A DNA stretch of 25,521 nt, from NCBI GenBank assembly GCA_016758965.1, contig JAEPRB010000399.1, forward strand, positions 1 to 25,521, given 5' to 3'. A model generated the notes under the pieces. The model did no database searches, was not told where the DNA came from, and saw nothing but the letters and a program-made list of their open reading frames with translations. A program made the translations under genes and the position numbers. The first letter of the stretch is position 1. Each line of letters begins with the position of its first letter. The DNA comes from Circinella minor (Eukaryota; Mucoromycota; Mucoromycetes; Mucorales; Lichtheimiaceae). This document shows, in pieces, positions 3,299 through 23,680 of this stretch.

Positions 3299-4044
3299 TC
3301 TTTTTTTTTTTTTTTGCGTATAAATATCTTTTCTTTTTTGAACGAAATGATTTATAATTGAATAAAGTTGATTTATCGTTAATGAAAAAAAGGAAAAGGG
3401 ATTATTTAGGGTATTATTGTGAAAAAAAAAAAGAAACGCGAATAAATTTAGTGGATATAAAACGCGAAGTTTTAAAAAGCGCGTTATGTTAGTTTAATTT
3501 TGCTGAGTGTTAATTCATTAATATAGTTTTATTCATTCGGTCCGGTTTGAAATATATTGATAGAGAATATTGTAGTAAAGTAGTCCTATAATTAATAATA
3601 CTAAAATAAATTACTTTTTTTTATGCAATTTAAAAGCTTATTAATTTTATATATCAATATCTGTTATGTTCTTCAGACGACCAGTATGAATTCATGTTCA
3701 AAAAATAGATTACGTAAGAATGGTTAACTTTTTCCTTTTTTATATGCAAAGTTATAAATTTTAGTAGTTAACACACAAAACATATATTCGGCTTACTGTA
3801 CTAATAAAATAAAACATAAACAATCCAAACGTATACATTTTTCATGACAAGATGATACAAAATGTAGCAGGAAAAAAAAGGTATGTTTTTGCTCATACGT
3901 ATTGATTTATATGGACAAAACCCAACATGTCAATCTATTTTATGGTAAGTCCGAGGGTTTGATAAACTCTAAAAGTAAAATTAAAAGGTCAATGCTCAAA
4001 CAAAATATTTATCAAAAAAATATCAATAGAAGAATAAAATAAAT
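3299..4044. promoter_or_regulatory. Upstream region of the ATAD5/Elg1-like gene; unique flank before the array
   Basis: No credible gene. The 190 bases next to the ATG hold a poly-T run (3301-3315) and three CGCG sites, described separately. From about 3500 to 4044 the DNA is AT-rich and I find no match to the repeated units that begin near 4045, so this is probably the single-copy boundary of the array. Confidence 0.55.
3436..3484 (-). promoter_or_regulatory. Cluster of three MBF/E2F-like CGCG sites
   Basis: ACGCGAA at 3436-3442 and 3462-3468 (TTCGCGT on the coding strand) and GCGCGT at 3479-3484 lie 138-186 bases upstream of the ATG at 3298. Such sites resemble the ACGCG core of MCB/MBF elements and the TTCGCG core of E2F sites, which drive G1/S expression of DNA-replication genes in fungi and animals. 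Three CGCG tetramers within 49 bases stand out in DNA this AT-rich. The binding factor is inferred. Confidence 0.5.
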
Positions 4045-5180
4045 GTACATAATCATACAAAGAGTATTAGAAAACTCTTGTACGTATTAAATTTCAGTAG
4101 ATTATGTAGAGTTTGAAGCAAGTGACTGTAGATAACAAAATTATTATTGCTATCACTGGACTTTTTTTTTCAATTTAAATCCGTATTTACTGGTAGTATG
4201 ATGACGAACGTTACATAGTGTATAGAACCCGGCCATATAAGAATCCTATTTACAGCTTTCCAATAGCTTCTAATGTCGTAATGTAATATTACTAGCTAGT
4301 AAATGTTAGGCATGTTTTTTTTATAAATTGAGTGAGAAATAAATACAAAATATTAAGAGTATCGATAATTATGTAATGAATCTGTTATCAGATCATTGGT
4401 AAAAACGACTACAGGAACACTTTAAATGCTTCCATGAAGTAACAAACAGAAACAAACACTCATGGGGCACGCATAACCAATCATCTATATATTTGTGTCT
4501 ATTATCCTCCTAATTTAAGAAAAAAATAGGGTCTTAACGTGAATAAAAAGTAAATTATATGGTAGCATATATACATCTATCCAACCATTTACTGCGTAAT
4601 AAGTATTTTTATTTTTGCACATATATTATTCTTGCACAGATTCAGGAACAGAAATGTTACAATTTTCAACTTTTTTATATTACTTGTTTTATATACTTTA
4701 TGAAATAGTTCTCTTTCTTTCTTTTTGCCTAGATATAAATGTCATTATTTCATTTTATATTTGCCCTATTATACTACTCTTATTCTTAAAATGTTTTTTT
4801 TCTTGGTTTCTATACAGTAACATGGTAATTATAAATAATACCATTCTAATGAGTTACTTATGATAACTATTACAAATAATAGATAATATATAATTGACGA
4901 CAGAAGATTCATTGCTATTTTTATTATTATATAAAATATAATACACACATCATCTGTCAATAAAATTACCACATAATGTTTCTTGGACACATTGTATCTT
5001 GCTTGGATAATTACTACATTTACTGTTAATAATTTTTATATGGTGACAAACATTAGTGTAATCGTAGGTATCTGATGGGTGAGTCTATGAATAGTAGCGT
5101 TAATTACAAGTACATCCCTTGTTACTGCTTGTATAATCAAGAATAAAGACACATCAATAAAATAAGTTTCCAAGCATCTT
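4045..5180 (+). repeat. S block, unit 1 (left end of the array)
   Basis: First copy of a spacer module that recurs near 8570, 12961, 18750 and 24459. It begins with TACATAATCATA. It contains landmarks shared by all or most copies: GAGTTTGAAGCAAG, TTTACTGGTAGTATGATG, ATTGGTAAAAACGACT and GACACGCATAACCAA (GGCACGCATAACCAA here). No gene is supported. An ATG-less open frame at 4615-4863 is not shared by the other copies and is rejected. Confidence 0.75.
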
Positions 5181-6255
5181 AATATTCCCTAAATATTAAA
5201 CTAATCTCTGTTATACTAATTTTCTTATAAAAATTATAGTACTAGTAGTAGCAGTGCAGTAAGTAAAATAAAATAAAATGATCGGTGATGTGCTATCAGA
5301 ATACCTTACGCTATATTACGTATAAGTATTATCATCTTGCATAAATCAAAACAATATGAGGTAGGTCACACAAGGAGCACCTTTTTGCTGCCTTTGTAAT
5401 GCACATTTTTCTGTAATGTACACAAGAAATTATACCTATTTGAGAATTTTAGGAGCAAAGTATACGCCGATGTTTTTCATTTCGAATATCCCCTGAAAAA
5501 TGTCAAACTACCATTTCAGCCATATGTCCGTATTACAGCTCAAAAATTTTATTGCTAGCTACTACTTTTTTTTTTCTTTTGAAATGTTATGTCTTAGTGT
5601 ATTAAAGTAGATTACAGCAATTGACTAGTATTAGCCATTTAATTATGCTGATCTTTTGGATGATACTTTTTTATTTCGTTTAAATACTGCGTACTAATAT
5701 AAAATGGCTATATTGTGTGATATAAAAGAAAGTGTCATTGTCGGTAAAGTCAAGTAAATAGTTATAATATTACGATAAATTAAAGTTATAAAATATTTGA
5801 AAACCAAAATGATGTATTAAAAAATATACTCTATGCTTTACAGGAGTGTTATATTTCTTCGATAGCGGCAAAGATAACAAAGTTAGAAAAGAGTTTGTCA
5901 TAACATACATCTGAATTTTATAGTTGTGGGAGAGGGATGTTCTGATGCAATTTGGAGAAACCGCTCTACTAATAATTAACAAGCATACACATAGTTTTAT
6001 CAATTTCCCTCCCCCCTGAGTTTTTACGTCGTCATGGGGTAAAGTAGATGATTGACAACCTATTCATTTCTTTTATCACCATGAATAGCAACAGCTAAAA
6101 TCATGATTATTTTTCTTCTAGCAATACAGAGTGCGTTTTTTAACACAAAAACGAGCTCGACGAAAAATGTTACAAGATCAATTAAAACTATAAACTGGGA
6201 AGTATTAGTAAGAATAGAAACGTCTTTTTTGTCAGTAATATCAAAGAATGCTTTC
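5181..6255 (-). repeat. M block, unit 1, inverted relative to units 2-4
   Basis: This stretch is the reverse complement of roughly 9730-10785. For example ATCGGTGATGTGCTATCAGAAT at 5281 pairs with the complement ending at 10692, and long stretches between about 5281 and 5760 are almost identical when flipped. The S block on its left and the P block on its right are in normal orientation, so only this module is inverted. A short non-homologous stretch, 6256-6375, lies at the right junction. No protein-coding gene is supported. Confidence 0.85.
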
Positions 6256-6750
6256 TTTGCTGAAACCAGGTAGTCAATAAAACTATTTGCGAAATATGAT
6301 ATTACCCACGCAGTATCTAATTAAACTTCTGAGAAAACGAATGTATAATATAAGCGATTACGTTGATAATGTAGTATAAATCAAAAGTAATACATAATAA
6401 TAGCATCATGCGGTTATAATACAAATAATATGTTGTTCAGAACATTTCTTGGGAACGAACAAAGACGTACATTTACTGGGGTAATACAAAAAAAAGTGAG
6501 AGAGTTAAGCATGATAAATATTCTATATCCTTTTTGCAATAATACGAGTATTTGAAAATCATGTTATACATTCAAATAAAACTCACTTTTTCGGTACGTC
6601 ACTAACAATTTTATAATATACACTAATATTTTAGTAACTATAGCTGAACTCCCCACTTGATACTTTTTTTTTAAAAAAAAAAACTCCATAGTTTCATAAT
6701 GTGGGCGTAATCAAAGTTCAATAGAGCTCTATAGAAAAAATAACTCCCAT

Positions 6751-6764
6751 CAAGTGCTAACTTG
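6751..6764. promoter_or_regulatory. Dyad CAAGT-N4-ACTTG upstream of gene 1
   Basis: A perfect 5-bp inverted repeat around the spacer GCTA. Equivalent dyads sit at 11154, 16913, 21379 and (altered) 22908. The spacer varies between copies while the arms stay fixed, which suggests a dimeric regulator site. Confidence 0.4.
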
Positions 6765-7219
6765 TTCTCTGAATATTATTATATACACTTAGTGTACCTA
6801 TGCATAATATATTTTTGTCCCTTTTAATGCTAATAATCGAGCTACAATAATTACTTATTCGTAGATTGATGGGCGTTACACGTTTTACACTGGGAATAGA
6901 AACAAGAAGATATCTTTATTCATTACGAAAGTGGTCTGAGAAGTAACATCATCAGATAAATATTAAAAGTGGACAAAGTTAATAATTGGTATATTCATTA
7001 CTGTCACTCGGAGTAGTCGTAGTATAAAATTGTGCATTCTTTATTTGAGTATCAATATTAAGTAACAAAATTGAACAGAATAATAGAGAAGTGTGATGAT
7101 CAACGATAACAGCTCCTGAAATGCAAACCCCCTTCCCTTTTTTCTTCTTCTATGTACAACAAAAATGAATGATCATTTTCAAAAATCTACTCCCATACTT
7201 CCAGACTTAAAAAAATCAA

Positions 7220-7228
7220 TATAAATAG
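7220..7228 (+). promoter_or_regulatory. TATA box, peptide gene 1
   Basis: TATAAATAG lies 58 bases before the ATG at 7278. The same TATAAATA element precedes each paralogue by 57-72 bases. Confidence 0.6.
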
Positions 7229-7277
7229 TAGACAAAAATCTAAGTAATATTCTTATCTTCAGTACATTTTATTTATT

Positions 7278-7499
7278 ATGCGCCATTTCACTTCCGTTGT
7301 TGCCTTCGTTAGTTTGGCTCTTTTTGCAATCTCTTCTGTATCAGCTACCGGTTCTGGTGATTTACAAGGTTCCTCTGAACAAAAAAGAGACGTCAATGCA
7401 GCTCCAGTAAAAAGAGAAACAGACGCTGAATACTGTGAAGCATGTAAGATGGCTCCGGATCCAGAGTGCATACCATTTTGCGCTAGCCTTGAGTATTAG
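7278..7499 (+). CDS. Secreted four-cysteine prepropeptide, paralogue 1
   Basis: 73 residues, intronless, ATG at 7278. Residues 1-23 form a signal peptide: MR-, a hydrophobic core VVAFVSLALFAISS, and probable cleavage after SVSA. Residues 24-37 are a propeptide ending EQKR, and 38-46 are the spacer DVNAAPVKR. Both KR pairs are Kex2/furin-type sites, so processing in the secretory pathway should free a 27-residue peptide (47-73). That peptide has C53, C56, C64 and C68 (C-x2-C-x7-C-x3-C), P60, and a net charge near -6. The 46-residue leader is almost identical in four further genes of the window, while the C-terminal peptide differs. Function unknown: effector, toxin-like peptide, signal or metal-binding peptide are all possible. 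Leader conservation and the Cys frame make the coding call secure; the family is not one I recognise. Confidence 0.87.
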   Translation: MRHFTSVVAFVSLALFAISSVSATGSGDLQGSSEQKRDVNAAPVKRETDAEYCEACKMAPDPECIPFCASLEY

Positions 7500-7706
7500 T
7501 CAAAACCCGCAAGTTCAAAAAACTTTGGTAAAAATAATCATGACGGCACCAAGATATCATGAATTATCAAGATTACAAAACGATCATTTCAATAATGGAC
7601 GTGAATGATATGATATATTATGATATATTACTCTTATTTTTTTTTTACTTTACTTTACTTCTATTTGTCTGTTCCTTTTGTAATTGTCGAATAATTTAAA
7701 TTAACA

Positions 7707-7712
7707 AATAAA
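7707..7712 (+). terminator. Probable poly(A) signal, gene 1
   Basis: AATAAA about 210 bases after the stop codon, in a block conserved after all paralogues. Copy 3 has AATAAT here. Confidence 0.4.
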
Positions 7713-7892
7713 TTATTTTGGTTTTACTCTATATCTTCTCTTCTTTATAACAATCAAAAAGAATAGATTTCAAAGCATAGCTTAATATATCACTATTTGG
7801 TTATTTATTATGGGATTTAGCTGTCATTTTAATTTTTGTTTTTCTTAAAAAAAATCATTATCTATAAAAGCAAAGCTTGTAGACAAGCAAGA

Positions 7893-7909
7893 AGCAGTTT
7901 AATACTGCT
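7893..7909 (+). repeat. Hairpin AGCAGT-TTAAT-ACTGCT
   Basis: A perfect 6-bp stem with a 5-base loop, about 390 bases after the gene 1 stop, preceded by a second stem GCTTGT-AG-ACAAGC (7875-7888). The first-named stem recurs at 12288, 18024, 22523 and 24069 with an identical TTAAT loop and changes that keep pairing if G-U is allowed. Confidence 0.45.
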
Positions 7910-8569
7910 ATGTGGGCACAGTTTTAGTCACTTATTGCCCGTTCTTTTTCTTGAAATAACAACACAAGGGCTCATTCAAAAACTACAGTATACAAGTTGT
8001 AAATATATAAGACCTTGAATAAAATACCCTACTTTCTAAATTATTAAATGTCATTTTTCGACCTGTATTTTTTCTTTATAATCATTAATTTATTGAAAAT
8101 GTTTAAAGGCAAGTCTCTTGGAAGTGACATTATGTAAATTAGATACTCTTACCACTACTCAAATGTACGCTCATTTATCAAAGCAAATTTTAATCTTCTT
8201 TTTTTTTCTTATCAAAGCTTTAGGTGAGAAAGAACAAATCACTGACTTTGGAATGAAAATTTTAAACTACAATAAGAAAACTTTACGAACGTGATCGTTT
8301 TGCTTGTGAGAAAAAAAAAGAATCTTGTTTTATTGAACTGTTCATAAAGAACAAAAAAACATTAATACATGTGTTGCTCTAAAGCAGAGCTGAACAGAAT
8401 ATCAATATCAATAAGATTAAACACCATTTAATTTAACATCAAAAGTGTTTATCCAATTACATGTTTAGAAATGCTACTGAAAAGAAAATGACTAGATGGG
8501 GCGCGCCATTTTTGAGTTGGCATCTTATTAACAGGGTAAATACCTCTAGTCAGCGCCTCTCCCAAAATA

Positions 8570-9690
8570 AAAATACATAATCATATAAAGAAAACTAGAA
8601 TTTCTGTCTTGAATTTTAATAGATTATATTGAGTTTGAAGCAAGCCGCAGTGAACTTCTTGATAGATAATAAGAAAAATGATATTTTTTATCATTGAGTT
8701 TTTTATTTTCGATTTGAATCCATTTATTTACTGGCAATATGATGGCACCTGTTACAGATTCTATACCTATATAAGAATTTTATTTACATCCTCTCAATAT
8801 GTCGTGATGTAATATCACCAATAAACGCTACAACATATGTTTTTTTTAAAAAAAATGATATGAGAGATTAATCCAGAACAAACGAGTACCAGTAATCACT
8901 GAATATATCTGTCGTTAGATTATTGGTAAAAAACGACTGTAGAAACACTATTTGCGTCTTTGAAGTAACAACAGAATTAAATACGTATTAGACACGCATA
9001 ACCAACTACTACCTATTTGTGTCTGATACTTTCTCAGATTAAAAAAAAAATACAGTTTAACATGGCTAGAAAGTATGTTATACATGGTAATCTATATACA
9101 AACTATCCAGCCGTTCAGCACTTAACTATTTAAATATTATACTTGTACGAATTAAAAATAAAATTGCAACGATATCCATATTTTATATTACTTTTACTTG
9201 TATACTTTATGAGAAACGTTTTCTTTTTTATAGTTTTCTATTTGATATAAACTTGACTCTTTTACATATTCGACGTATTATACTTTTCTTTGGAGAAATT
9301 TTTTATCGCTTACTTTCTATGTAATAACATGAGGACAACCATAAAATGAAATAAATGACACTGCCTTAATGAGTTACTTATGAAGACTACTATAGATCAT
9401 GGGTAATATATTTTTAAAAAGAGGTTTGATGCTACTGTTACTGTAAAGATTATAATATAACATGTCGCTCATTAATAAAAACAACGCATAGTGTTTCTCA
9501 GGCACGTGATGTCGCGAATATATCTTCCATTAATAATATTTATGTTGAGGAGACAACTACTAAGTAACAGTAGGTATCCGATGGGTGTGTCCGTATCAAT
9601 ATCCTTACGTACTTTTAAGTCGTTTCTTTACTATAATTAAGAATGAAACCAAATCAATGAAATAAATTTCCATATGTACTGTTTTAATGT
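8570..9690 (+). repeat. S block, unit 2
   Basis: Direct repeat of 4045-5180, starting at TACATAATCATATAAAG. Shared with units 3-5. No gene visible. Confidence 0.75.
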
Positions 9691-10790
9691 GTTTTTACTA
9701 TAATGGCTTAATATACACACTTTGGGTAAAAAGAAACTTTCTTTGGTACTACTGAAGGGGAGACGTTTTTATTGTTACTATTATTGTTCAGTTTATAGGT
9801 TTAATTGATCTTGTAACATTTTTCTTCGAGCTCATTTTTGTGTTAAAAAACGCACTCCGTATTGCTAGAAGAAAAATAGTCAAGATTTTAGCTGTTGCTA
9901 ATAATCATGGTGATAAAAGAAATGAATAGGTTGTCAATCATCCACTTTAATCCATGATGACGTTAAAACTCAGGAGGGAGTGGGATTGATAGAATCACTT
10001 TCATGCTTGTTAATTATTAGTAGAGCGGTTTCTCCAAATCGCATCAAAACATCCCTGTCTCACAGCTATAAAATTCAAATGTATGTTACGACTCGCTCTT
10101 TTCTAACTTTGATGTCTTTGCCACTGTCGAAGAAATATAACATTCCCTAGCATAGAGCGCTTTTTCTCTTTAATTTACCAAATATTCTAACTTTAATTTA
10201 TCGTAATATTATTACTATTTACTTGACTTTACCGACAATGACACTTTCTTTTATATCAAGCAATATAGCGACTTTATAGTGCGCAGTATTTAAACAAAAT
10301 AAAAAAGTATCATCCAAAAGATCAGCATAATTAAATGGCTAATACTAGTCAATTGCTGTAATCTACTTTAATACACTAAGACATAACATTTCAAAAGAAA
10401 AAAAAAAGTAGTAGCTAGCAATAAAATTTTTGAGCTGTAATACGGACATATGGCTGAAATGGTAGTTTGACATTTTTCAGGGGATATTCTAAATGAAAAA
10501 CATCGGCGTATACTTTGCTCCTAAAATTCTCAAATAGGTATAATTTCTTGTGTACATTACAGAAAAGTGTGCATTACAAAGGCAGCAAAAAGGTGCTCCT
10601 TGTGTGACCTACCTCATATTGTTTTGATTTATGCAAGATGATAATACTTATACGTAATATAGCGTAAGGTATTCTGATAGCACATCACCGATCACTTTAT
10701 TTTATTTTACTTACTTCACTGCTACTAGTAGTATAATTTCTATAAGAGAATTATATGACAAAGACAGTTTAATATTTATTATTAATCAAA
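9691..10790 (+). repeat. M block, unit 2
   Basis: Same orientation as in units 3 and 4, opposite to unit 1. Landmarks: GAAGGGGAGACG, AAAAACGCACTC, GGTTGTCAATCATC, ACTAGTCAATTGCTGTAATC, CATATGGCTGAAATGG, and TATTTTACTTACTTCACTGCTAC at its right end. An ATG-less open frame (about 9985-10149) is shared with units 1 and 4 but has no start codon and is broken in unit 3. It is not called a gene. Confidence 0.75.
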
Positions 10791-11153
10791 AGTAATATAT
10801 AACAATAGCATTATGCGGTTATAATACAGATAATGTGTTCATGAGAACATTTCTTGAGAACGAACAAAGGCATACATTTACTGGGGTAATAAAAAAATGG
10901 AGAGAATTAAGTACGATAAATATTCTATATCCTTTTTGCAGTAATACGAGTATTTGAAAATCATGTTATACATTTAAATAAGACTCACTTTTTTTTCGGT
11001 ATGTGACTTACAGTTTTGTAATACACACTAATATTTTAGTAACTCCCTACTACATGGTATATTTTTTTCTAAAAAAAAAGATAACTACATAGTGTCATTA
11101 TGTGGGCGTAATCAAAGTTCAATACAGCTCTATAGAAAAAAAAATAACCCCAT

Positions 11154-11167
11154 CAAGTAATAACTTG
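11154..11167. promoter_or_regulatory. Dyad CAAGT-N4-ACTTG upstream of gene 2
   Basis: Same arms as at 6751, spacer AATA. Confidence 0.4.
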
Positions 11168-11622
11168 CTCTCTGAATATTAGTGTACCGTATATACTTAG
11201 AAAACCTACGCAGAATATATTCCCGTCCCTTCAAATGCTAATAATCGAGTTACAATGTTACTTATTCATAGATTGATGGGCGTTACACATTTTGCACTGG
11301 GGATAGAAACAAGAAGATGTCTTTATTTACTACGAAAGTAATCTGAGGAGTAACATCAGATAAATATAAAAAGTGAACAAAGTTAATAATTGGTGTATTC
11401 ATTACGGTCACTCGGAGTAGTCGTAGTATAAAATTATGGATTATTTATTTGAGTATCAATACTAAATAACAAAATTGAACAGAATAATAGAGAAGTGTGA
11501 TGATCAACGAAAACAACTCCTAAAATACAAACCCCCTTCCCTTTTTTTCCTCCTATGTACAACAAAAATGAATGATCATCTTCAAAAATCTACTCTCATT
11601 CTTTCAAACTTAAAAAAATCAA

Positions 11623-11630
11623 TATAAATA
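11623..11630 (+). promoter_or_regulatory. TATA box, peptide gene 2
   Basis: TATAAATA, 57 bases before the ATG at 11680. Confidence 0.6.
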
Positions 11631-11679
11631 TAGACAAAAATCTGAGTAATATTCTTATCTTCAGTACATTTTATTTATT

Positions 11680-11913
11680 ATGCGTAATTTTACTTCTGTT
11701 GTTGCCTTCGTTAGTTTGGCTCTTTTTGCAATTTCTTCCGTATCAGCTACTGGTTCTGGTAATTTACAAGGTTCCTCTGAACAAAAAAGAGACGTCAATG
11801 TAGCTCCAGTAAAAAGAGAAACAGACATTGAATACTGTGACTCATGTGCGATGGACCCGGATAGCGAGTGCATGGAATATTGTAACGCATTGTTAGATAG
11901 TCAAAACCAGTAG
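11680..11913 (+). CDS. Secreted four-cysteine prepropeptide, paralogue 2 (longest C-terminus)
   Basis: 77 residues. The 46-residue leader differs from paralogue 1 at three residues (H3N, D28N, A41V), with SVSA before the likely signal cleavage, EQKR at 34-37 and PVKR at 43-46. The predicted 31-residue product keeps C53, C56, C64, C68 and P60 but changes nine of the 22 residues up to C68. Its last five residues (DSQNQ) are encoded by DNA that aligns with the 3' UTR of paralogue 1, where AGTCAAAACC follows the stop. Small changes around the stop thus lengthened the peptide. The product is acidic, with nine D/E and no K or R. This is the closest relative of paralogue 1 in coding and flanking DNA. 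Confidence 0.87.
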   Translation: MRNFTSVVAFVSLALFAISSVSATGSGNLQGSSEQKRDVNVAPVKRETDIEYCDSCAMDPDSECMEYCNALLDSQNQ

Positions 11914-12960
11914 GTTCAAAAAACTTTGGTAAAAATGATCATGACGGCACCAAGATATCATGAAGTATCAAGATTACAAAACGATCATTTCAAGAATGGA
12001 CATGAATGATATGATATATTATGATACATTACTCTTATTTTTTTTTTACTTTACTTCTATTTGTCTGTTCCTTTTGTAATTGTCGAATAATTTAAATTAA
12101 CAAATAAATTATTTTGGTTTTACTCTATATCTTCTCTTCTTTATAACAATCAAAAAGAATAGATTTCCAAGTATAGCTTAATATATCACTATTTGGTTAT
12201 TTATTATGGGATTTAGCTGTCATTTTAATTTTTGTTTTTCTTAAAAAAATCATTATCTATAAAAGCAAAGCTTGTAGACAAGCAAGAAGCAGTTTAATAC
12301 TGCTATGTGGGCATAGTTTTAGTCACTTATTGCCCGTTCTTTTTCTTGAAATAACAACACAAGGGCTCATTCAAAAACTACAGTATACAAGTTGTAAATA
12401 TGTAAGACCTTGAATAAAATAGCTTACTTTCTAAATTATTAAATGTCATTTTTTCGACCTGTATTTTTTCTTTATAATCATTAATTTATTGAAAATGTTT
12501 AAAGGCAAGTCTCTTGGAAGTGACATTATGTAAATTAGATACTCTTACCACTACTCAAATGTACGCTCATTTATCAAAGCAAATTTTAATCTTCTTTTTT
12601 TTTCTTATCAAAGCTTTAGATGAGAAAGAACAAATCACTGACTTTGGAATGAAAATTTTAAACTACAATATAAAATATAAAATTATGAACGTTGTCGCTT
12701 TGCTTATGAAAAAAGAAAAGATTATGTTTTATTGAACTGTTCATAAAGAACAAAAAAACATTAATACATGTATTGCTTCAAAACAGAGCAGGATCGAATA
12801 TCAAGGTTAATAACCCCAAACAACCTTTAGTTTAACAACAAAAGTATCTATCCGATTACTTGTTTAGAGATGCCACTGAAAAAAGAATAGCGAGAGAAGC
12901 CACATTTTTGAACTAGCATCTTAGTAACATGGTGCGCCTCTAGTCAGCTCCCCTCTCTAA
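11914..12960 (+). repeat. D block: downstream module of unit 2
   Basis: Nearly the same as 7500-8569. It holds a poly(A) signal AATAAA at 12103, the AGCAGT hairpin at 12288-12304, and at 12816-12953 a 138-base stretch identical to 18597-18734. A 73-codon open frame at 12514-12735 has no ATG at its start and is not kept in units 3 and 5. Confidence 0.7.
12103..12108 (+). terminator. Probable poly(A) signal, gene 2
   Basis: AATAAA about 190 bases after the stop, at the position equivalent to 7707. Confidence 0.4.
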
Positions 12961-14065
12961 AAAAAGTATATAATCATATAAAAAAACTAGAATTTCTGTC
13001 TTTAATTTTTATAGATCATTTAAAGTTTGAAGCAAGTCCCAGCAGGTTTTTTGGTAGATATAATAAGAGTGATATTTTTATCACTGGATTTTTTTTATCT
13101 TCCATTTAAATCTACATATTTACTGGTAGTATTATGAAGACCGCTACATCATATTATATACCTATATAAGATTAATAGTTACATCTTTCCAATGAGTCGT
13201 GATGTAATATCGCCAATAAACGCTACGTGTGTTCTTTTTAATGCATGAAAGGTATATCCAGAACAAGAGAGTATCAGTAATTACTGGATGGATTTGTTAT
13301 TAGATTATTGGTAAAAAATACTATAGGAACATTATATGCGTCTATGAAGTAACAACAGAATTAAATACGTATTAGACACGCATAACCAACTACTACCTAT
13401 TTGTGTCTGATACTTTCTCAGATAAAAAAAAACAGTCTTAACATGACTCGAAAGTATGTTATATGGTAATCTATATACAAACTATCCAGCCGTTTAGCAC
13501 TTGATTATTTATACTTTTGCAGAAATATTATTCTTGCGCGGATTAAGAACAAAATTGCAAAGATATCCATCTTTTATATCATTCTCTTTATATATACTTG
13601 ATATAAACTTTCTTTCTTTTAATTTTTGGCCAATAATACTTTTATTTCCAGAATATTTTTAGTTTCTTACTTTCTATGCAATAGCATAATAATTTTAAAG
13701 TGAAATAACTAATACCATTTTTATGAATTACTTATAATAACTATTATAAATAATAGCTAACATATAATTATTTCCAAAAAGATGTAATGTTATTATTAGT
13801 AATTATTTATGTTAATTATGCGAAATATAATATATGTCCCTTATTACTAAAAACACGATGCTTTACAGGTATATGACGCGGATACATTTTCTGTTAATGA
13901 TTTTTATGTGGAGACAAAGATTGATTTAAGAGCAGTAGGTGTCCGATAGGTGTGACTGTATTAATAGTCTTACAAGTACATTTTTTGTTATAATTAAGAA
14001 TAAGCAAATCAATTAAATACATTTTCACGTATTTTGATATTGTTTTTTATAATGTTTTATATTAT
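12961..14065 (+). repeat. S block, unit 3
   Basis: Direct repeat of the S blocks of units 1, 2, 4 and 5. The stretch ACGTATTAGACACGCATAACCAACTACTACC near 13367 is shared exactly with unit 2. No gene seen. Confidence 0.72.
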
Positions 14066-14350
14066 ACAGTCACTTTCTCAGATGTTTAATCAGGTACTGA
14101 GTGAATAATATTTTCCAAATGGTTCAATTAAGGCTGTCTATCAGACTTGCAGATAGAGTGCTATGATCATAATTCTTTCGTTATTACCGAAACAAAACAA
14201 ATATAATAGTTACATAAAAACAAAATAAAACTAATGTAAATATTATCATGGAATCTTGGTCATTGAAAGCGAAGCCAGAAGAACGGGAGGGAGGGTGTGA
14301 CTCCCTATCAGTTCAGATTCGTCCAGTCGTTCGATGGACTGAACGAACAA
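14066..14350. other. Unit-3-specific insertion with a GC-richer patch
   Basis: About 0.28 kb absent from the same place in units 2 and 4, where the S and M blocks meet directly. The right part (14251-14350) is clearly richer in G+C than its surroundings. It contains GGGAGGGAGGG at 14285-14295 and an imperfect stem TTCGTCCAGT/ACTGAACGAA (14318-14327 with 14338-14347, one mismatch). It has no open frame of note. Origin unknown; a mobile-element remnant is possible. Confidence 0.5.
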
Positions 14351-14681
14351 CAGTTTAAGTTAAAAAAAAAAGATTTTTCTTGATACTACTAAAAGAAAGA
14401 CACTTCTATTGTAATTTATACAATTCGGTTTATAGGTTTTAATACGCTTTTCTCCGGGTTCGTTTTTCTGTCAAAAAAAAAACACTATGTATTGATAAAA
14501 GAAAAATAGTCAAGATTTTAGCTGTTGTTATCCATGATAATAAAAAACGTGATTGGGTTGTGAATCATCTACTTTACTCCATGGTGCCGATAAAACCTAG
14601 GACAGGAGGGAAATTGATAAAACCATCTTCATGCTTGTTAATTAGTAGTTGAGCGATTTCTCGTAATTGTACCAAAGCATC
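14351..14681 (+). repeat. M block, unit 3, left part
   Basis: Matches the start of the M blocks of units 2 and 4 (TTGATACTACT, CGGTTTATAGGTTTTAAT, AGTCAAGATTTTAGCTGTT). It stops at about 14681, where an insertion interrupts it. Confidence 0.65.
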
Positions 14682-14761
14682 ACAACATAAAAAATAATAC
14701 CTACATTATACTTAATATATGTAAAACATATACTTTATTCAAACACCATTTTAAAGAATTA

Positions 14762-14935
14762 TTCAGGCATTATTTAAGCACTAAATTTTAAAGCATTATT
14801 CAAGATGAGTTGCGTTCAGGAAATATTTAGACATTAATTAAAAATGAGATAGATTCAGGCAGTATTTAGGCATTAAACGAAAATAAGCTGGGTTCAGGTT
14901 ATTAGGCATTATTCAAGTCTCATTTAGTAATGGCC
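14762..14935. repeat. Degenerate short tandem repeat (period 39)
   Basis: TTCAGG motifs start at 14762, 14815, 14854 and 14893. The last three are exactly 39 apart and the first gap is 53. Most are followed by a variant of TATTTAGGCATTAA and an A-rich stretch. The units are diverged, so this is an old minisatellite. Confidence 0.55.
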
Positions 14936-15026
14936 AGTAACTCTTGAAGTTGATGAAGTATTTGTATGCTAAAAATCCTTAACAATAGCAAAAAGAAGCT
15001 ATAGCTTGTTATACTATATCCAATGT

Positions 15027-15052
<26 letters not shown>
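15027..15052. repeat. TA microsatellite, 13 units
   Basis: Uninterrupted (TA)13 inside the unit 3 insertion. Confidence 0.9.
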
Positions 15053-15057
<5 letters not shown>

Positions 15058-15126
15058 GAGTGAGTTTACCTTGTTTTTTATTCAGATTTTCAAATAAACA
15101 TATTTTTAATAACACCATGAATCATG

Positions 15127-15150
15127 ACCATTACCACAAGGTGGTAAGGT
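15127..15150. repeat. Strong hairpin in the unit 3 insertion
   Basis: TTACCAC-AAG-GTGGTAA is a perfect 7-bp stem with a 3-base loop (15131-15147), extended by ACC/GGT past one bulged A. No role is known. Confidence 0.5.
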
Positions 15151-15803
15151 ATCATTCTTGCCCAAATAAAGTATGATCGAGTACTATGAGACAGCATCTC
15201 ACAAAAATTATATATGTTGTATACACGAAATCAGTGCTAGGTCGCTCATATACATAAACTGGTACTAATATTTATGTTTTTACTCTTGCTTACATACATA
15301 TGTACCATCAAAAATGAAATTTCACCAAAATAATGTTGTAACACTATTGCATCAATTGAGCTTTTTCCTTTAAGTACATAAGTTTCTAAAAAGTTTATTG
15401 TTAATTTTATATTTACGTTATTTTAACTACATGTAATATTCTTATATTTTAATAAATAACAGCAACATACACATACTCGTTCGACTCTATTCTAACAATA
15501 TAAGCCGCCCAACTGATTTTTCTATAAGTAATGAAATTACGTACTAAAAAATGTATTATGGTTTTTTTTATGTATTCACATCAAATATACAATAATTTTT
15601 TAATTCATTGAATACGTGGTTTATTAGGTTTTTTAATATTTTTAATAAAAAGATAGTCTTGTAGTTTTTATACAGTAACGCTTTTAAGTAAGTCTGTGAT
15701 TAAACAGTAATATATAATCACATCACCTATCAAACAAGAATAATTTTATGTCTGAATATAGCCTGAAATAAAGAGTAGTTAAGTTTAGAAGTCTGTTTAG
15801 TGA

Positions 15804-16525
15804 TATCCCTGCCCCACAACTATAGAATTCAGATATATGTTATGACACTCGCTCTCTAACTTCTTGTCTTATTTTGTACTGTCGAAAAAACATAACATTT
15901 CTATGCACAGAGTATTTTTTTTCTTTAATCTACTGTTTGTCATTTGGATATTATAATTTCTTAATTTTACTGACAACAGTTTATATCAAACAATAAAGTA
16001 ATTCCATAGTATGTAAACAATATTGAAAAAAAAATTGTCCAAAAGATCAGCATAATAATATGCTTAATATTAGTCAGCTGTTGTATTTTACTTTGATATA
16101 GTAAGACATAAAACTTAAAGAAAAATCAAGAAAGCACTAGCAATAAATTTTTGAACTATAGAAACATGGACATATGACTGAAATGGTTAGTTTGGCATTT
16201 TTTCAGGGGATATTATAAAAGAAAAAAGCCGACATATATCATATAGTATTTTTTGTTCCTGAAATTTTTAAATTGGTATAATTTCTTGTGTACGTTACAG
16301 AAAAGTGTGCATTACAAAGATATCAGAAAGACGCTCCCTGATATTATATTAATTTATGCAAGATGATAATACGTATAAGTAATATGATGTAAGATATTCT
16401 GATAGCACATCGCCGATAATTTATTTCGTGGTTTATAGCACTTTATTTTATTTTACTTACTTCACTGCTACTAGCACTATAATTCTTATAAGAGAATTAG
16501 TATAACAAAGACTGTTTAATATTTA
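15804..16525 (+). repeat. M block, unit 3, right part
   Basis: Resumes the M block at ATATCCCTGCCCCACAAC and runs to TTACTTACTTCACTGCTACTAGC. It is more diverged from the other units than their M blocks are from each other. Confidence 0.65.
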
Positions 16526-16912
16526 TTAAAAATCAAAAGTAATACATAATAATAGCACGATGCGGTTATAATACAGATAATATGTTCATGAGAACATTTC
16601 TTGAGAGCGAACAAAGACATACATTTACTGGGGTAATAAAAAAAAGGGAGAGAAATAAGTACGATAAATATTCCCTATCCTTTTTCCAGTAATACGAGTA
16701 TTTGAATAAATCATGTTATACATTCAAATAAAACTCACTTTTTCGGTATGTGACTTACAGTTTTGTAATACATCATACTAATAATTAATAACTATAGCTG
16801 AACTCCCTACTTGATATATTTTTTTTTTTAAAAAAAAAAAAAAACTGCATAGTGTCATAATGTGGGCGTAATCAAAGTTCAATACAGCTCTATAGAAAAA
16901 AAATAACCCCAT

Positions 16913-16926
16913 CAAGTAATAACTTG
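16913..16926. promoter_or_regulatory. Dyad CAAGT-N4-ACTTG upstream of gene 3
   Basis: Same arms as at 6751, spacer AATA. Confidence 0.4.
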
Positions 16927-17384
16927 CTCTCTGAATATTAGTGTACCGTATATACTTAGAAAACCTACGCATAATATATTCCCGTCCCTTCAAATGCTAA
17001 TAATCGAGCTACAATAATTACTTATTCGTAGATTAATGGGCGTTACACGTTTTGCACCAGGGATAGGAACAAGAAAATGCCTTTATTTACTACGAAAGTG
17101 GTCTGAGAAGTAACATTAGATAAATATAAAAAGTGAACAAAGTTAATAATTGGTATATTCATTACTGTCACTCGGAGTAGTCGTAGTATAAAATTGTGCA
17201 TTCTTTATTTGAGTATCAATATTAAATAACAAAATTGAACAGAATAATAGAGAAGTGTGATGATCAACGAAAACAACTCCTGAAATGCAAACTCCCTTCC
17301 CTTTTATTTTCTTCTATGTACAACAAAAATGAATGATCATCTTCAAAAATCTACTCCCATTCTTTCAAACTTAAAAAGAATCAA

Positions 17385-17395
17385 TATAAATATAG
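17385..17395 (+). promoter_or_regulatory. TATA box, peptide gene 3
   Basis: TATAAATATAG, 69 bases before the ATG at 17454. Confidence 0.6.
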
Positions 17396-17453
17396 ACAAA
17401 AATCTGAGTAATATTCTTATTTTTAGTACATTTTATTTATTATTATTGTAATC

Positions 17454-17669
17454 ATGCGTCAATTTACTTCTGTTGTTGCCTTCATTAGTTTGGCTCTTTT
17501 TACAATTTCTTCCGTATCAGCTACCGGTTCTGCTGATTTACAAGGTTCCTCTGAACAAAAAAGAGACGTCAATGTAGTTCCACAAAAAAGACAAACGGAT
17601 GCAGAAATTATATGTTTCGCATGTTCACAGGACCCTGCTAACGATTGCACGGCAGCATGCGGTTTCTAA
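17454..17669 (+). CDS. Secreted four-cysteine prepropeptide, paralogue 3
   Basis: 71 residues with the same 46-residue leader layout: signal 1-23, propeptide to EQKR at 37, and spacer DVNVVPQKR to 46. The second site is PQKR rather than PVKR/PIKR but keeps KR. The predicted 25-residue product begins with Gln, which could cyclise to pyroglutamate after Kex2 cleavage (inference). One extra residue before the first Cys shifts the frame to C54, C57, C65 and C69, with the same C-x2-C-x7-C-x3-C spacing and Pro at 61. The C-terminus is CGF, as in paralogue 5. It is the least acidic member (four D/E) and has no K or R. Unknown function. Confidence 0.86.
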   Translation: MRQFTSVVAFISLALFTISSVSATGSADLQGSSEQKRDVNVVPQKRQTDAEIICFACSQDPANDCTAACGF

Positions 17670-18749
17670 CGCTATGTAAATTTAAAGAGCTTGGGTAAAC
17701 ATCAAGATTACAAAACGATCATTCCAAGAACTGGCGTAAATGATATGATATATATATTATGATACATGATTCTTATTTGTTTTACTTTACTCCTATTTGT
17801 CTGTTCCTTTTTGTAATTGTCGAATAATTCAAATTAACAAATAATTTTTTTTGGTTTTACTCTATATCTCATCTTTATCACAATAAAAGAAAATACAAGG
17901 CTATAAAGCACAACTTAACTTTTAACTATTTCGCTATTTATTATAGGTTTTAACTGTCATTTTTACTCTTGTTTTTCTTAAAAAATCCTTATCTATATAA
18001 GCAAAACGTGTAGACAAGCAAGCAGCGGTTTAATACTGTTTTGTTAGCATATTAGTCACTTATCTCCCGGTTCTTTTTTTTTTTTTTTTGCCATAGCAAC
18101 ATAAAAGCTAATTTCAAAGCTATAGTATATAAGTTGTAAATACATAAAGCTTTGAATAAAATATCTTACTTTCTAAATTATCAAATGTCATTTTTCAGCC
18201 TTCATTCTTTTTTAAAAATCATGTTTTCTATCAACCTATTGAAAATGCTTGAGGGCAAGCTGGAAGTGACATTACGTAAAGTGGGTATCTTTCCTTAATA
18301 CTACTCAAATGTACGCTGATTTATCAAAACAGGTTTTAATTGTGATTGTTCAAGTAGAATAACCATAGTGATTTTTCCGCTTACTAAAGTTTTGAATGAG
18401 AATGAACAAACCATTGACTTTACAATGAAAATTTTAAACTACAGTGTAAAAAAATAAAAAATTATGAACGTTGTCGTTTTGCTCATGAGAAAAGAAAGGA
18501 TCTTGTTTTATTAAACTGTTCATAAAGAACAAAAAACAACATTAATATATGTATCGCTTCAAAACAGAGCAGGACCGAATATCAAGGTTAATAAGTCCAA
18601 ACAACCTTTAGTTTAACAACAAAAGTATCTATCCGATTACTTGTTTAGAGATGCCACTGAAAAAAGAATAGCGAGAGAAGCCACATTTTTGAACTAGCAT
18701 CTTAGTAACATGGTGCGCCTCTAGTCAGCTCCCCACCCCAAAAAAAGAC
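17670..18749 (+). repeat. D block: downstream module of unit 3
   Basis: Homologous to the other D blocks. AATAAT replaces AATAAA at the poly(A) position (about 17839). The hairpin at 18024-18040 reads AGCGGT-TTAAT-ACTGTT. The final 138 bases before 18734 are identical to unit 2. No gene beyond the peptide gene. Confidence 0.7.
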
Positions 18750-19865
18750 GTACATAATCATATAAAGAAAATTAGAATTTCTGTCTTGAAATTTAATAGA
18801 TAATGTAGAGTTTAAAGCAAGCTCTAGTGAACTTTTTGGTAGATAATAGAAATGATATTTTTATCACTGGGTTTTTTTATCTTCCATTTAAATCTATATA
18901 TTTACTGGTAGTATGATGACAACCGCTACATCATATTGTATATCTATATAAGAATTCTAATTACATTTTTCCAATGGGTTGTGATGTAATATAACCAATA
19001 AACGCTACGCGTGTTTTTTAATTACATGAAAGGTAAATCCAGAATAAAAAAAAAGTATTAGTAATCACTGGATAAATCTGTCATTAGATTATAGGTAAAA
19101 ACGACTATAGAAACACCATATGCGTCTATAAAGTAACAACAAAAGCAAATACGCATTAGACACACATAACCAACTACTACCTAATTGTGTTGTCTGATAC
19201 TTTCTTAGATAAAAAAAAAATACAGTCTTAACATGGTTCGAAAGTACGTTATATGGTAATCTATATACGACTATCGAACTGTTTAGCACTTGATTAATTA
19301 TATTTTGTATTAATATTATTTTTGCGCGAATTAAGAACAAAATTGCAACAGTATTTACTTTTTATATTACTTGCACTTGTATACTTTTTGAGGAACTTTC
19401 CCTTTTTATAATTTTCTATTTAATATGAGCTTGACTTTTTATATATTTGACCTACTATACTAATATTCGGAAAATATTTCATTCCTTGCTTTGTATGCAA
19501 TAACATAACGAAAGCTTCAAAATGAAATAAATGATACCACTCTAATGAGTTACTTATGATAACTATTATAAATAATATATAATATATAATTAAAAAGAGG
19601 TTCGATGCTACTGTTACTGTAATAATTATAATATTATCCATGTAGAATATAATATATGTCTCTCATTAATAAAAACAACGTATAATGTTTCTCAGGCACG
19701 TGATGTCGCGAATATATCTTTCATTAATAATATTTATGTTGAGACAACTATTAACGTGACAGTAGATGTCCAGTGTGTGTGTCCGTATCAATAGTCTTAC
19801 GTATTTGCAAGTCGTTTCTTTATTATAAATAAGAATAAAAACAAATCAATCAAAGAAGTTTTCCA
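18750..19865 (+). repeat. S block, unit 4
   Basis: Direct repeat of the other S blocks, with TACATAATCATATAAAG at its start and GCACGTGATGTCGCGAATATATCTT near 19696, shared with unit 2. Open frames on the minus strand here are not conserved in other units. Confidence 0.72.
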
Positions 19866-20990
19866 AGTGTTTTATTATTGTTTTTATTATAATGGCTTAA
19901 AATATACATACTTTGGGTAAAAAAAAAAAACTTTTTTTTGATACTACTGAAGGGGAGACGCTTTTTTATTGTTATTAATACTGTTCAGTTTATAGACTTT
20001 AATTAATATTGTAACATTTTTGTTCGAGCTCGTTCTTGTGTTAAAAAACGCACTCTGTATTGCTACGTAGAAGAAAAATAGTCAAGATTTTAGCTGTTCC
20101 TATTCATGGTGATAAAAGAAATGAATAGGTTGTCAATCATCTACTTTAATCCATGATGACGTTAAAATTCAGGGGGGGGGAGTGGGATTGATAGAATCAT
20201 TTTTATGCTTGTTAATTATTAGTAGCGCGGTTTCTTCAAATTGCATCAAACCATCCCTGTCTCACAGCTATAAAACTCAAATGTATGTTACGACACACTC
20301 TTTTCTAACATTGTTGTATTTATCCTGTCGAAGAAATATAGCATTTCCAAGCATAGAGTATTTTTTTTGGATATTCTAACTTTGATTTATCGTAATATTA
20401 TTACTATTTACTTAGCTTTACCGACAATGACACTTTCTTTTATATCACACAATATAGCCATTTTATATTAGTACGCAGTATTTAAACGAAATAAAAAAGT
20501 ATCATCCAAAAGATCAGCATAATTAAATGGCTAATACTAGTCAATTGCTGTAATCTACTTTAATACACTAAGACATAACATTTCAAAAGAAAAAAAAAAG
20601 AAGTAGCGAGCAATAAATTTTTTAACTATAATACGGACATATGGCTGAAATGGTAGTTTGACATTTTTTCAGGGGATATTCTAAATGAAAAAACATCGGC
20701 GTATATTTTGCTCCTAAAATTCTCAAATAGGTATAGTTTCTTGTGTACATTACAGAAAAGTGTGCATTACAAAGGCAACAGAAAGGTGCTCCTTGTGTGG
20801 CCTACCTCATATTGTTTTGATTTATGAAAGATGGTGCTTATACGTAATATAGCGTAAGGTATTCTGACATCACATTACCAATTAATTTATTTTGTGGTTT
20901 AAAGACCTTTATTTTATTTTACTTACTTCACTGCTACTAGTACTATAATTTTTTTAAGAAAAATTAGTATAACAAAGATAGTTAATTACT
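19866..20990 (+). repeat. M block, unit 4
   Basis: Same orientation as unit 2 and very similar to it. It contains a G9 run at 20172-20180 that has a different length in every copy. The open frame starting at 20182 begins with GTG, not ATG. It aligns with ATG-less frames in units 1 and 2 and is broken in unit 3. Confidence 0.72.
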
Positions 20991-21378
20991 CCCTATTAAT
21001 CAAAAGTAATACTTTACAGTAATAGGGTATTATACTATAGATGATGTGTTCGAGAGCAAATTTCTTGAATACGAACAAAGACATGCATGCTGGGGTAAGA
21101 AAACAAGAAAGGACCGAAATAAGTACGATGAATATCCTTTTTTGTTCTGCAGTAATACGAGTATTTGAAAATCATGTTAGACATTCAAACGAAACTCTGT
21201 TTATTTCTGTGTGTACGTAACATTAATGTATACATACTAAATATATATTTTACTAACTATCATACAATTGAACTCCCTACTTGGTATTTTTTTTAAAAAA
21301 AAGAAAGTGCATAATGTCATAACGTGGGCGTAATTGAAGTTTAATACAGTTCTATAAAGAAAAAAACACCACTCCCAT

Positions 21379-21392
21379 CAAGTGATAACTTG
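21379..21392. promoter_or_regulatory. Dyad CAAGT-N4-ACTTG upstream of gene 4
   Basis: Same arms as at 6751, spacer GATA. Confidence 0.4.
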
Positions 21393-21837
21393 TTTTCTGA
21401 ATATTTATTGTATAAACTTATTATACCTATGCATAATATATTTCCGTCCCATCCAAATATGCTAATGATCGAGCTAAAATGTTTTTCACCGGGCATAGAA
21501 ATAAGAAGATGCCCCTATTTACTGCGAAAGTGGTCTAAGGAGTAACATCAGAGGAATATAAAAAGTGAACAAAGTTAACACTTGATATACTCATTACCGT
21601 TGCTCGGAGTAGTAGTAGTAGTATAAAATTGTGCATTATTTATTTGAGTATCAATATTAAACAGCAGAATTGAACAGAATAATAGAGAAGTGATGATCAA
21701 TGAAAACAACTCCTGAAATACAAACGCCCTTTCCCTTTTTTTTTACTGCTATATGTTATGGAGTATGTACAACAAAAATGAAATGATTATCTATAAAACT
21801 CTACTTCCAGACTTCCAGACTTGAAAAAAAAAATCAA

Positions 21838-21846
21838 TATAAATAG
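21838..21846 (+). promoter_or_regulatory. TATA box, peptide gene 4
   Basis: TATAAATAG, 70 bases before the ATG at 21908. Confidence 0.6.
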
Positions 21847-21907
21847 TAGATAAAAATCTGAGCAATGTTCTTATTTTCTGTACATTTTATTTATTATTAT
21901 TATTATC

Positions 21908-22123
21908 ATGCGCCATTTCACTTCCGTTGTTGCCCTCGTTAGTTTGGCTCTCTTTGCAATTTCTTCCGTATCAGCTACCGGTGCTGATGATGTACAAGGA
22001 TCCTCTGAACAAAAAAGAGACGTCAATGTAACTCCAATAAAAAGAGAGACAGACGAAGAATACTGTGCCGCATGTGATGAGTTCCCTGATGACGAATGCG
22101 TGGATTATTGCTTTACTCCATAA
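21908..22123 (+). CDS. Secreted four-cysteine prepropeptide, paralogue 4 (most acidic)
   Basis: 71 residues. The leader has the common signal peptide ending SVSA, a propeptide TGADDVQGSSEQKR and the spacer DVNVTPIKR. The predicted 25-residue product (47-71) carries C53, C56, C64 and C68 and P60. It has ten Asp/Glu and no Lys or Arg, the strongest negative charge in the family. It ends CFTP. Compared with paralogue 5 it differs at 15 of the 22 codons from residue 47 to the fourth Cys, all replacements, while their leaders differ at 9 of 138 bases. Such acidity argues against a classical cationic antimicrobial peptide. Function is not known. Confidence 0.86.
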   Translation: MRHFTSVVALVSLALFAISSVSATGADDVQGSSEQKRDVNVTPIKRETDEEYCAACDEFPDDECVDYCFTP

Positions 22124-22665
22124 TAATTAGTAAAAATATGCAGATTTAAAAAACCTTAGTAAAACTAATTATAACGACAACACAATATTGTGAATTATCA
22201 AGATTACAAAACGATCATTCCAAGAACTGGCGTAAATGATATGATATATATATTATAATACATGATTCTTATTTGTTTTACTTTACTCCTATTTGTCTGT
22301 TCCTTTTTTGTAATTCTCGAATAATTCAAATTAACAAATAAATATTTTTGGTTTTACTCTATATCTCATCTTTATCACAATAAAAAAAAATACAACAAGG
22401 TTATAAAGCATAACTTAACTTTTTACTATTTCGTTGTTATTATGAGTTCTAACTGTCATTTCTATTCTTCTTCTTTATAAAAAATTGATAGTTATATAAG
22501 CAAAGTTTATAGACAAGCAAGCAGTAGTTTAATACTGCTATGTTAGCATATGAGTCACTTATTGCCCTTTTTTTTTCTTGTCATAGCAACACAAAAACTA
22601 ATTCAAAAACTACAGTATACAAGTTGTAAATATATAAGACCTTGTTGAATAAAATAACTTATCAC
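22124..22665 (+). repeat. D block of unit 4, truncated
   Basis: Matches the first half of the other D blocks, with a poly(A) signal AATAAA at 22337 and hairpin AGTAGT-TTAAT-ACTGCT at 22523-22539. It breaks off near 22665, before the part that elsewhere leads to the S block. Confidence 0.65.
22337..22342 (+). terminator. Probable poly(A) signal, gene 4
   Basis: AATAAA at the position equivalent to 7707. Confidence 0.4.
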
Positions 22666-23467
22666 ATGCTCCGAATTTTTTCTTAAATAAAAATTGTGAC
22701 TATAAATCATATTACGTACTCCCGGTTTTGCTTTTTTTTTTTTTGTATGTAACTAACATTGTTGTATACATACTAATATTTTAGTAACTATAGCTGGACT
22801 CCCTACTTGGTATGTTTTTTTTTTTAGAAAAAAAAATTGGATAGTGTCATGAAGTGGGCGTAATTGAAGTTCAATACAGTTCTATAAAGAAAAAACATCA
22901 CTCCCATCAAGAAGTAATAACTTGTTTTTTGAATATTATTGTATACACTTAGTGTACCTATGCATAATATATTTCTGTCCCATTTAATCCTAATAATCGA
23001 TCTAAAATGTTACTTATTCGTAGATTGATTGGCGTTCTACGTTTTGCACGGGGCATAGAAACAAGAAGACGCCCCTATTTGCTGCGAAAGTGGTCTGGGG
23101 AGGTAGCATTAGATAAAAATAAAAAGTAATCAAGGTTTATAAATGATATATTTATTACCATCACTCGGAGTAAGTGCAGTATAAAATTGTGCATTATTTA
23201 TTTGAGTATCAATATTAAATAACAAAATTGAACAGAATAATAGAGAAGTGATGATCAATGAAAACAACTCCTGAAATACAAACGCCCTTTCCCTTTTTTT
23301 TTACTGCTATATGTTATGGAGTATGTACAACAAAAATAAAATAATCATCTACAAAACTCTACTCCCATACTTCCAGACTTGAAAAAAAAAATCAATATAA
23401 ATAGCAAACAAAAATCTGGCAGTAATATTCTTATTTTCAGTACATTTTATTTATTATTATTATAATC
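22666..23467 (+). promoter_or_regulatory. Deletion junction and P block upstream of peptide gene 5
   Basis: From about 22740 this is the right three-quarters of a P block: T/A tract 22815-22836, GTGGGCG at 22854, a modified dyad CAAGAAGTAATAACTTG at 22908-22924, CACTCGGAGTAA at 23162, and a TATA box at 23396. About 75 bases of unassigned DNA (22666-22740) join it to the truncated D block. The rest of D, the S and M blocks and the start of P are missing. Confidence 0.65.
23396..23404 (+). promoter_or_regulatory. TATA box, peptide gene 5
   Basis: TATAAATAG, 72 bases before the ATG at 23468. Confidence 0.6.
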
Positions 23468-23680
23468 ATGCGTCGTTTTACTTCCGTTGTTGCCCTCGTT
23501 AGTTTGGCTCTCTTTGCAATTTCTTCCGTATCAGCTACCGGTGCTGCCGATGTACAAGGACTCACTGAACAAAAAAGAGACGTCAATGTAGCTCCAATAA
23601 AAAGAGATGAGATTGATGATGTGTGTGACGCATGTTCAGAGAACCCTAATAACGATTGCACAAATGTATGCGGTTTCTAA
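23468..23680 (+). CDS. Secreted four-cysteine prepropeptide, paralogue 5
   Basis: 70 residues, the shortest member. Signal peptide 1-23 ends SVSA. The propeptide TGAADVQGLTEQKR differs from the usual GSS before EQKR. The spacer is DVNVAPIKR. The predicted 24-residue product (47-70) starts with Asp instead of the usual ETD/QTD, has C53, C56, C64, C68 and P60, and ends CGF like paralogue 3. It has seven D/E and no K or R. Upstream DNA is nearly the same as for paralogue 4, yet the C-terminal peptide shares only seven of 22 residues up to the fourth Cys. Role unknown. Confidence 0.86.
   Translation: MRRFTSVVALVSLALFAISSVSATGAADVQGLTEQKRDVNVAPIKRDEIDDVCDACSENPNNDCTNVCGF

Follow-up and report, generated by a model that had tools for sequence, protein, structure and literature searches.

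The tandem array and its precursors

Here, we describe a tandem array of five genes in the window, by which we mean the whole of contig C399 (25,521 bases) of the mould Circinella minor (Mucorales, Lichtheimiaceae; genome of 46.6 Mb in 619 contigs). All five are open, apparently intronless reading frames (ORFs) of 70-77 amino acids (aa) on the plus strand, each with an ATG and a stop, and their starts lie 4402, 5774, 4454 and 1560 bases apart. An earlier note on this DNA had proposed five intronless genes of 70-77 codons that share a 46-residue leader, with EQKR and a second KR in DVNxxPxKR, and a peptide with the pattern C-x2-C-x3-P-x2-[DE]-C-x3-C; all five ORFs lie where it had placed them, and the alignment shows the leader and the cysteine pattern in 5/5. 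The window contains six matches to a degenerate DNA pattern that covers EQK and two bases (the first two) of an Arg codon, five of them inside the array genes, with 0.23 matches expected in shuffled sequence. When sets of five were evolved neutrally on a star tree to roughly the observed divergence, 287 of 100,000 remained without stops, and none also kept all four cysteines.

Gene 1 (7278-7499, plus strand, 73 aa) was delimited by its ORF, the alignment and a hydrophobic stretch. It begins with a predicted signal peptide (7278-7346), placed by this stretch and by the -3/-1 cleavage rule, followed, according to ORF and alignment, by a propeptide up to KR (7347-7388), the spacer DVNAAPVKR (7389-7415) and the predicted mature peptide (7416-7496). 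Gene 2 (11680-11913, 77 aa) has its leader at 11680-11817 and its predicted mature peptide at 11818-11910, with a C-terminal tail that extends into the stretch equivalent to the 3' untranslated region of gene 1. The corresponding parts are 17454-17591 and 17592-17666 in gene 3 (17454-17669, 71 aa), 21908-22045 and 22046-22120 in gene 4 (21908-22123, 71 aa), and 23468-23605 and 23606-23677 in gene 5 (23468-23680, 70 aa); the peptides of genes 3 and 5 are of a CGF-ending type.

Each precursor runs from a hydrophobic N-terminus through a pro-segment ending in KR and a short P-x-KR spacer to an acidic four-cysteine peptide of 24-31 residues, with the KR pairs aligned at positions 36-37 and 45-46 in all five. 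The hydrophobic stretch has Kyte-Doolittle values of 2.53-2.82 in five proteins (genes 1 and 5, P0004, and the proteins of contigs C446 and C59 described below). Proline stands at P4 of the second KR site in 8/8 array genes, C. minor and Circinella umbellata together, a residue that Kex2 accepts there according to the cited part of PMC8528282. Read as exon frames, Peptidase_S8 and P_proprotein domains mark at least two Kex2-type convertase loci in the genome, C83:91164-91533 and C293:39533-39885. The secretion and Kex2 cutting predicted earlier fit this layout, the presence of at least two such loci and a break in divergence at the second KR, and we infer that a Kex2-type convertase would cut at the KR sites in the secretory pathway. 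That each gene yields one disulfide-bonded peptide also fits the evidence, although as a simplification, because the conserved spacer DVNxxPx would likewise be released if cut; the idea that diversity is reached through gene copies agrees with what we found.

An island of divergence over the predicted mature peptide

Divergence is concentrated in the predicted mature peptide, which forms an island that the earlier note did not describe. Pooled pairwise differences per site, taken from alignments of the five copies, amount to 0.453 at synonymous (S) and 0.389 at nonsynonymous (N) sites in the mature part, or 0.485 and 0.491 without its five invariant columns, the 2 and 6 C-terminal residues by which genes 1 and 2 run past the shared columns being excluded. 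The leader gives 0.133 (S) and 0.083 (N), and the non-coding DNA 0.150 far upstream, 0.089 near upstream and 0.155 downstream. Variable columns make up 47/69 of the mature part and 27/138 of the leader, against 50/266 near upstream, 89/293 far upstream and 149/482 downstream; Fisher tests of the mature part against each other region gave P values of 1e-8 to 2e-14, with columns taken as independent. Genes 1 and 2 differ by 0.31 in the mature block and by 0.01-0.06 downstream, and none of 20,000 segments simulated at the flank rate attained 0.39. Inside the island, the first three cysteine codons are TGT, TGT and TGC in 5/5 copies each, and the fourth is TGC in 4/5.

A two-break change-point fit over -150 to 450 in the five copies placed the best breaks at 138 and 251 from the ATG, with a log-likelihood (lnL) of -296.7 compared with -333.2 without breaks; within 2 lnL, the start lies at 136-141 and the end at 250-253. 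Base 138 is the first base past the second Lys-Arg codons, and on gene 1 the hypervariable block occupies 7416-7528 of the plus strand. The start of the island provides independent evolutionary support for a cut at the second KR.

Repeat units and upstream DNA

The five genes are carried on repeat units, whose gene-spanning aligned stretches are 76-83% identical in a self-comparison, and the remaining aligned stretches 66 to 90%. The unit of gene 1 (6369-9723, plus strand) aligns with that of gene 2 (10774-14076) at 83%, while genes 3-5 lie in other units. The closest pair of copies shifts along the unit, being genes 2-3 far upstream and 1-2 downstream; at 300-450, genes 1-2 and 3-4 are alike, and the pair 3-5 is second closest in the mature block. 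Judged from these shifts in the alignments, the array is a recombination mosaic.

A conserved upstream block (7008-7113 at gene 1, plus strand) is present in genes 2-5 and in a sixth copy on contig C446, with identities of 0.91-0.99 among the five copies and 0.80-0.87 to the sixth. Between -275 and -165, 74 of 110 columns are invariant across the six copies, all of which also have a TATA-box-like TATAAATA (7220-7227, plus strand, 58 bases 5' of the gene 1 ATG). Invariant columns number 160/240 in the upstream blocks versus 361/865 elsewhere (P 5e-12), the blocks having been picked after viewing the identity profile and columns -165 to -130 lying outside both counts. The conserved block is likely a promoter element. 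A transposon or dispersed repeat was considered and rejected, as neither the promoter nor the mid-unit DNA had matches beyond this contig and C446 in a search that scored the best candidates only and skipped very common words.

Unit-like DNA (66-70%) lacking a gene copy lies at 4036-5172 and is perhaps an old, truncated unit. An inverted duplication, 5190-6258 versus 9730-10778, is 90% identical, and its 457-base core is 98% complementary; this exceeds the usual identity of the units, so the core was perhaps copied recently.

Relatives in the genome and in C. umbellata

Own-genome searches with four family members as queries (E up to 1 or 10) each returned the five window genes and the sixth, diverged copy (C446:1772-1957, 62 aa), which has a single KK and the pattern C-x2-C-x10-C-x3-C and whose upstream DNA matches that of the array at 69% over 243 bases. 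The peptide scaffold is kept in all three C. umbellata relatives (BDC45DRAFT_510454, 510455 and 510456), whose consecutive locus tags suggest a tandem set there too. These relatives came from searches of 5.8 billion proteins, of a word-based kind that misses distant relatives, in which thresholds of E up to 1, 10 and 10 gave 4, 7 and 8 proteins, 8 distinct ones in all: window genes 1, 4 and 5, the three from C. umbellata, the C59 protein, and P0007 (ENA), whose match lies in the leader. Apart from that leader match, no named protein relative outside Circinella was found among these 5.8 billion.

The two species were compared over the eight array genes (five from C. minor, three from C. umbellata), with the C446 and C59 proteins, the first mature residue and the tails of genes 1 and 2 left out. 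Leaders have an identity of 0.84 among the C. minor genes, 0.87 among those of C. umbellata and 0.69 across the two species, and for residues 24-46 the values are 0.78, 0.77 and 0.50; the mature peptides give 0.42, 0.56 and 0.50. Within minus between species, the leader difference of +0.159 was reached by 1/56 label sets and the mature difference of -0.044 by 52/56; without genes 3 and 5, the counts were 2/20 and 18/20. In this set of few sequences, leaders group by species and mature peptides do not.

Weak leader-sharing ORFs appeared on two other contigs, with three of the four queries on C7, with two on C59 and with one query on neither. One on C59 (139702-139974, minus strand, 91 aa; E 0.64 and 0.04) has a similar leader, an RKR site, six cysteines and a family-like ending. 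Its protein matches INT45_000876 of C. minor with full-length identity and, as a query, returned itself and the five window genes, not the C446 copy; it is possibly a distant branch of the family (E 0.02-0.7). The other, on C7 (376001-376363, 121 aa; E 0.01-0.9), has a leader that is 44% alike over residues 1-50 (E 0.01), followed by His-rich HAT-type repeats between KR/KK/RR sites, and its protein returned itself, the five window genes (E 0.04-0.6) and two long unrelated frames. It looks like a Kex2 precursor of the repeat type, perhaps with the family leader. The leader may carry other cargo as well, a six-cysteine peptide on C59 and a His-rich repeat precursor on C7.

Predicted structure and searches for a known family

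For the gene 2 mature peptide (31 aa), given in an alignment with those of the other four genes, AlphaFold predicts helices at 3-12 and 16-30 with a mean pLDDT of 86.4; Cys 7 and 10 sit in the first predicted helix, Cys 18 and 22 in the second. In a model of the precursor, pLDDT falls below 50 at residues 21-38. On these models, the released peptide would consist of two short helices and a turn with two disulfides, for which we assume the pairing C1-C4 and C2-C3 by analogy with alpha-hairpinins.

The earlier note had recognised no family, and searches of Pfam and the Protein Data Bank (PDB) turned up none either. In Pfam, nothing passed the cut-off for the five genes, for which the weak matches at E up to 1 were CD20 with gene 2 and z-alpha with gene 5; nor did anything pass it for P0004, P0007, P0008 and the C446 and C7 proteins, P0007 having a weak RXLR match (E 0.1). 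Sequence searches of the PDB with the mature profile and with the mature peptide of gene 2 returned nothing, and the six weak matches of the C59 protein (E 0.39-1.5) look like chance. Foldseek found no PDB fold at E up to 10, a 31-residue helical model being a poor query. Among the matches listed from the open-licence literature, no title or abstract start names the family, and none is a paper on such peptides in Mucorales.

Comparison with known systems

Conotoxins have a prepro-leader with a basic cut site, in which they resemble the array precursors. As described in the cited part of PMC3823881, their cysteines and cysteine codons are conserved beside hypervariable residues, and the array shows the same mode of conserved leader, hypervariable mature region and fixed cysteines. 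None of the five genes has conotoxin-family homology at the Pfam cut-off, and unlike conotoxins the array peptides are fungal and acidic and have no venom organ. Mytilus CRP-I peptides, in the section cited (PMC10138031), likewise come from tandem duplicates with a highly conserved signal and propeptide and an extremely diverse cysteine-rich mature region, but they are cationic, have six cysteines and belong to an animal, and positive selection is reported for them, whereas the array shows a relative excess only.

With Kex2-processed repeat proteins (KEPs) the precursors share dibasic Kex2 sites and, going by their hydrophobic N-terminus, probably a signal peptide (PMC6339444 and PMC7329392, cited in part). 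According to the part cited of a 2020 survey (PMC7329392), KEPs were present in 38/39 Mucoromycota strains, under a rule that asks for three or more repeats per precursor, each 8 aa or longer and lying between Kex2 sites. The array genes have two KR sites and one core each, and therefore such a three-repeat rule misses them. Circinella is not known to be a plant pathogen. The Kex2-processed pro-domain (K2PP) effectors, which the consulted part of PMC8528282 describes from plant pathogens, have a single N-terminal pro-domain, removed by Kex2, and one mature product; in all five array genes the KR motifs also follow an N-terminal pro-domain, and its removal is predicted. Alpha-hairpinins, as far as the cited excerpt of PMC11591084 goes, share four cysteines, a helix-loop-helix and two disulfides with what is predicted or inferred here, but those surveyed come from plants rather than a mould, and their CX3C-X4-20-CX3C motif differs from the C-x2-C-x7-C-x3-C of 5/5 array genes.

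Interpretation and alternatives

On balance, we lean slightly towards a reading in which Kex2-released helical-hairpin peptides diversify in the fashion of conotoxins and mussel CRP-I, while recombination keeps leader and flanks alike. The array would encode secreted prepropeptides; a Kex2-type convertase would cleave their KR sites in the secretory pathway and free a four-cysteine peptide, which would fold into a two-helix hairpin held by two disulfides. Unequal crossing-over and gene conversion would homogenise promoter, leader and flanks, and selection would keep or make differing peptides on one scaffold. The divergence agrees with a binding partner that changes or with selection that favours distinct peptides. 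As for function, our first guess, offered tentatively, is that the set binds targets and is used against other organisms that share the habitat of the fungus; a role in recognition or signalling, which we rank second, appears doubtful. A bolder version, an independently evolved conotoxin-like system of an early-diverging mould with one prepro-leader and one helical-hairpin scaffold, in which selection holds peptide types across species and whatever lies outside the Kex2 cut is homogenised by gene conversion, seems to us rather improbable. If the preferred reading is true, the array would be a compact fungal example of a mode of evolution familiar from venoms and from the defence peptides of mussels, and surveys demanding repeats inside one precursor would overlook it.

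Several observations weigh against this reading. On gene 1, the hypervariable block ends some 30 nt past the stop codon, in a stretch that gene 2 reads, so the island is not strictly coding. dN exceeds dS in only 3/10 mature pairs (leader, 1/10), and the synonymous difference in the mature block is as high as the nonsynonymous; the excess thus holds against the surrounding DNA and not inside the block. The tests concern five copies that are related to each other and take columns as independent, and the mature alignment was anchored on the cysteines by hand. At the cut sites, the C. umbellata copy P0006 has SR where the first KR is expected, and the C446 copy, with its single KK, lacks the proline. 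The 31-aa model has a pTM of only 0.44; the precursor model, with a pTM of 0.32 and a mean pLDDT of 61, agrees with it in the mature part. Nine peptides are acidic (net charge -3 to -10), which sets them apart from most membrane-acting antimicrobial peptides and makes a classical cationic antimicrobial peptide less likely.

The high synonymous difference makes old, conversion-spared peptide types as possible as fresh positive selection. A reading in which the mature peptides are not fast-evolving, their types predating the separation of the two Circinella species while gene conversion rejuvenated leader and flanks, is a serious possibility that comes fairly near to an even chance, and the absence of species clustering among mature peptides and the shifting closest pair speak for it as well. 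It overlaps the reading we prefer, which leaves the conversion mechanism open. Conversion tracts would have to stop repeatedly at the KR codons if no selection separated the types, and selection would therefore still be needed. With so sharp a break at the second KR, selection and gene conversion can be tested directly against each other.

It is unlikely, in our view, that the peptides are the fungus's own signals or self-recognition factors, pheromone-like and using their diversity as a code of identity. In favour, the copies have leader and promoter in common, and alpha-type pheromones of Ascomycota are Kex2-processed secreted peptides, but the same cited part of PMC6339444 gives apocarotenoids as the sex signals of Mucoromycotina, and a tandem array places every copy in one genome. 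Secreted peptides that bind zinc, copper or iron through four cysteines and acidic residues, with no disulfides, are very improbable: the CxxC and CxxxC spacing and the acidic composition suit them, but a metal ligand does not explain the divergence between the cysteines. The oxidising secretory pathway, moreover, favours disulfides. That these are ordinary decaying duplicates, in which only the leader matters and the mature ends drift, we regard as scarcely credible despite a mature-block dN close to dS, and we reject it on the simulation results above (0/100,000 neutral sets, 0/20,000 flank-rate segments), on frame and four cysteines being kept in 5/5, on mature divergence above that of the non-coding flanks and on the intact scaffold in 3/3 C. 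umbellata genes.

Other features of the window

A structured RNA was considered and rejected, no Rfam match reaching gathering scores. Minus-strand ORFs at 315-3298 have AAA and RFC1-type lid matches below the Pfam cut-offs and are presumably exons of an Elg1/ATAD5-like clamp loader.

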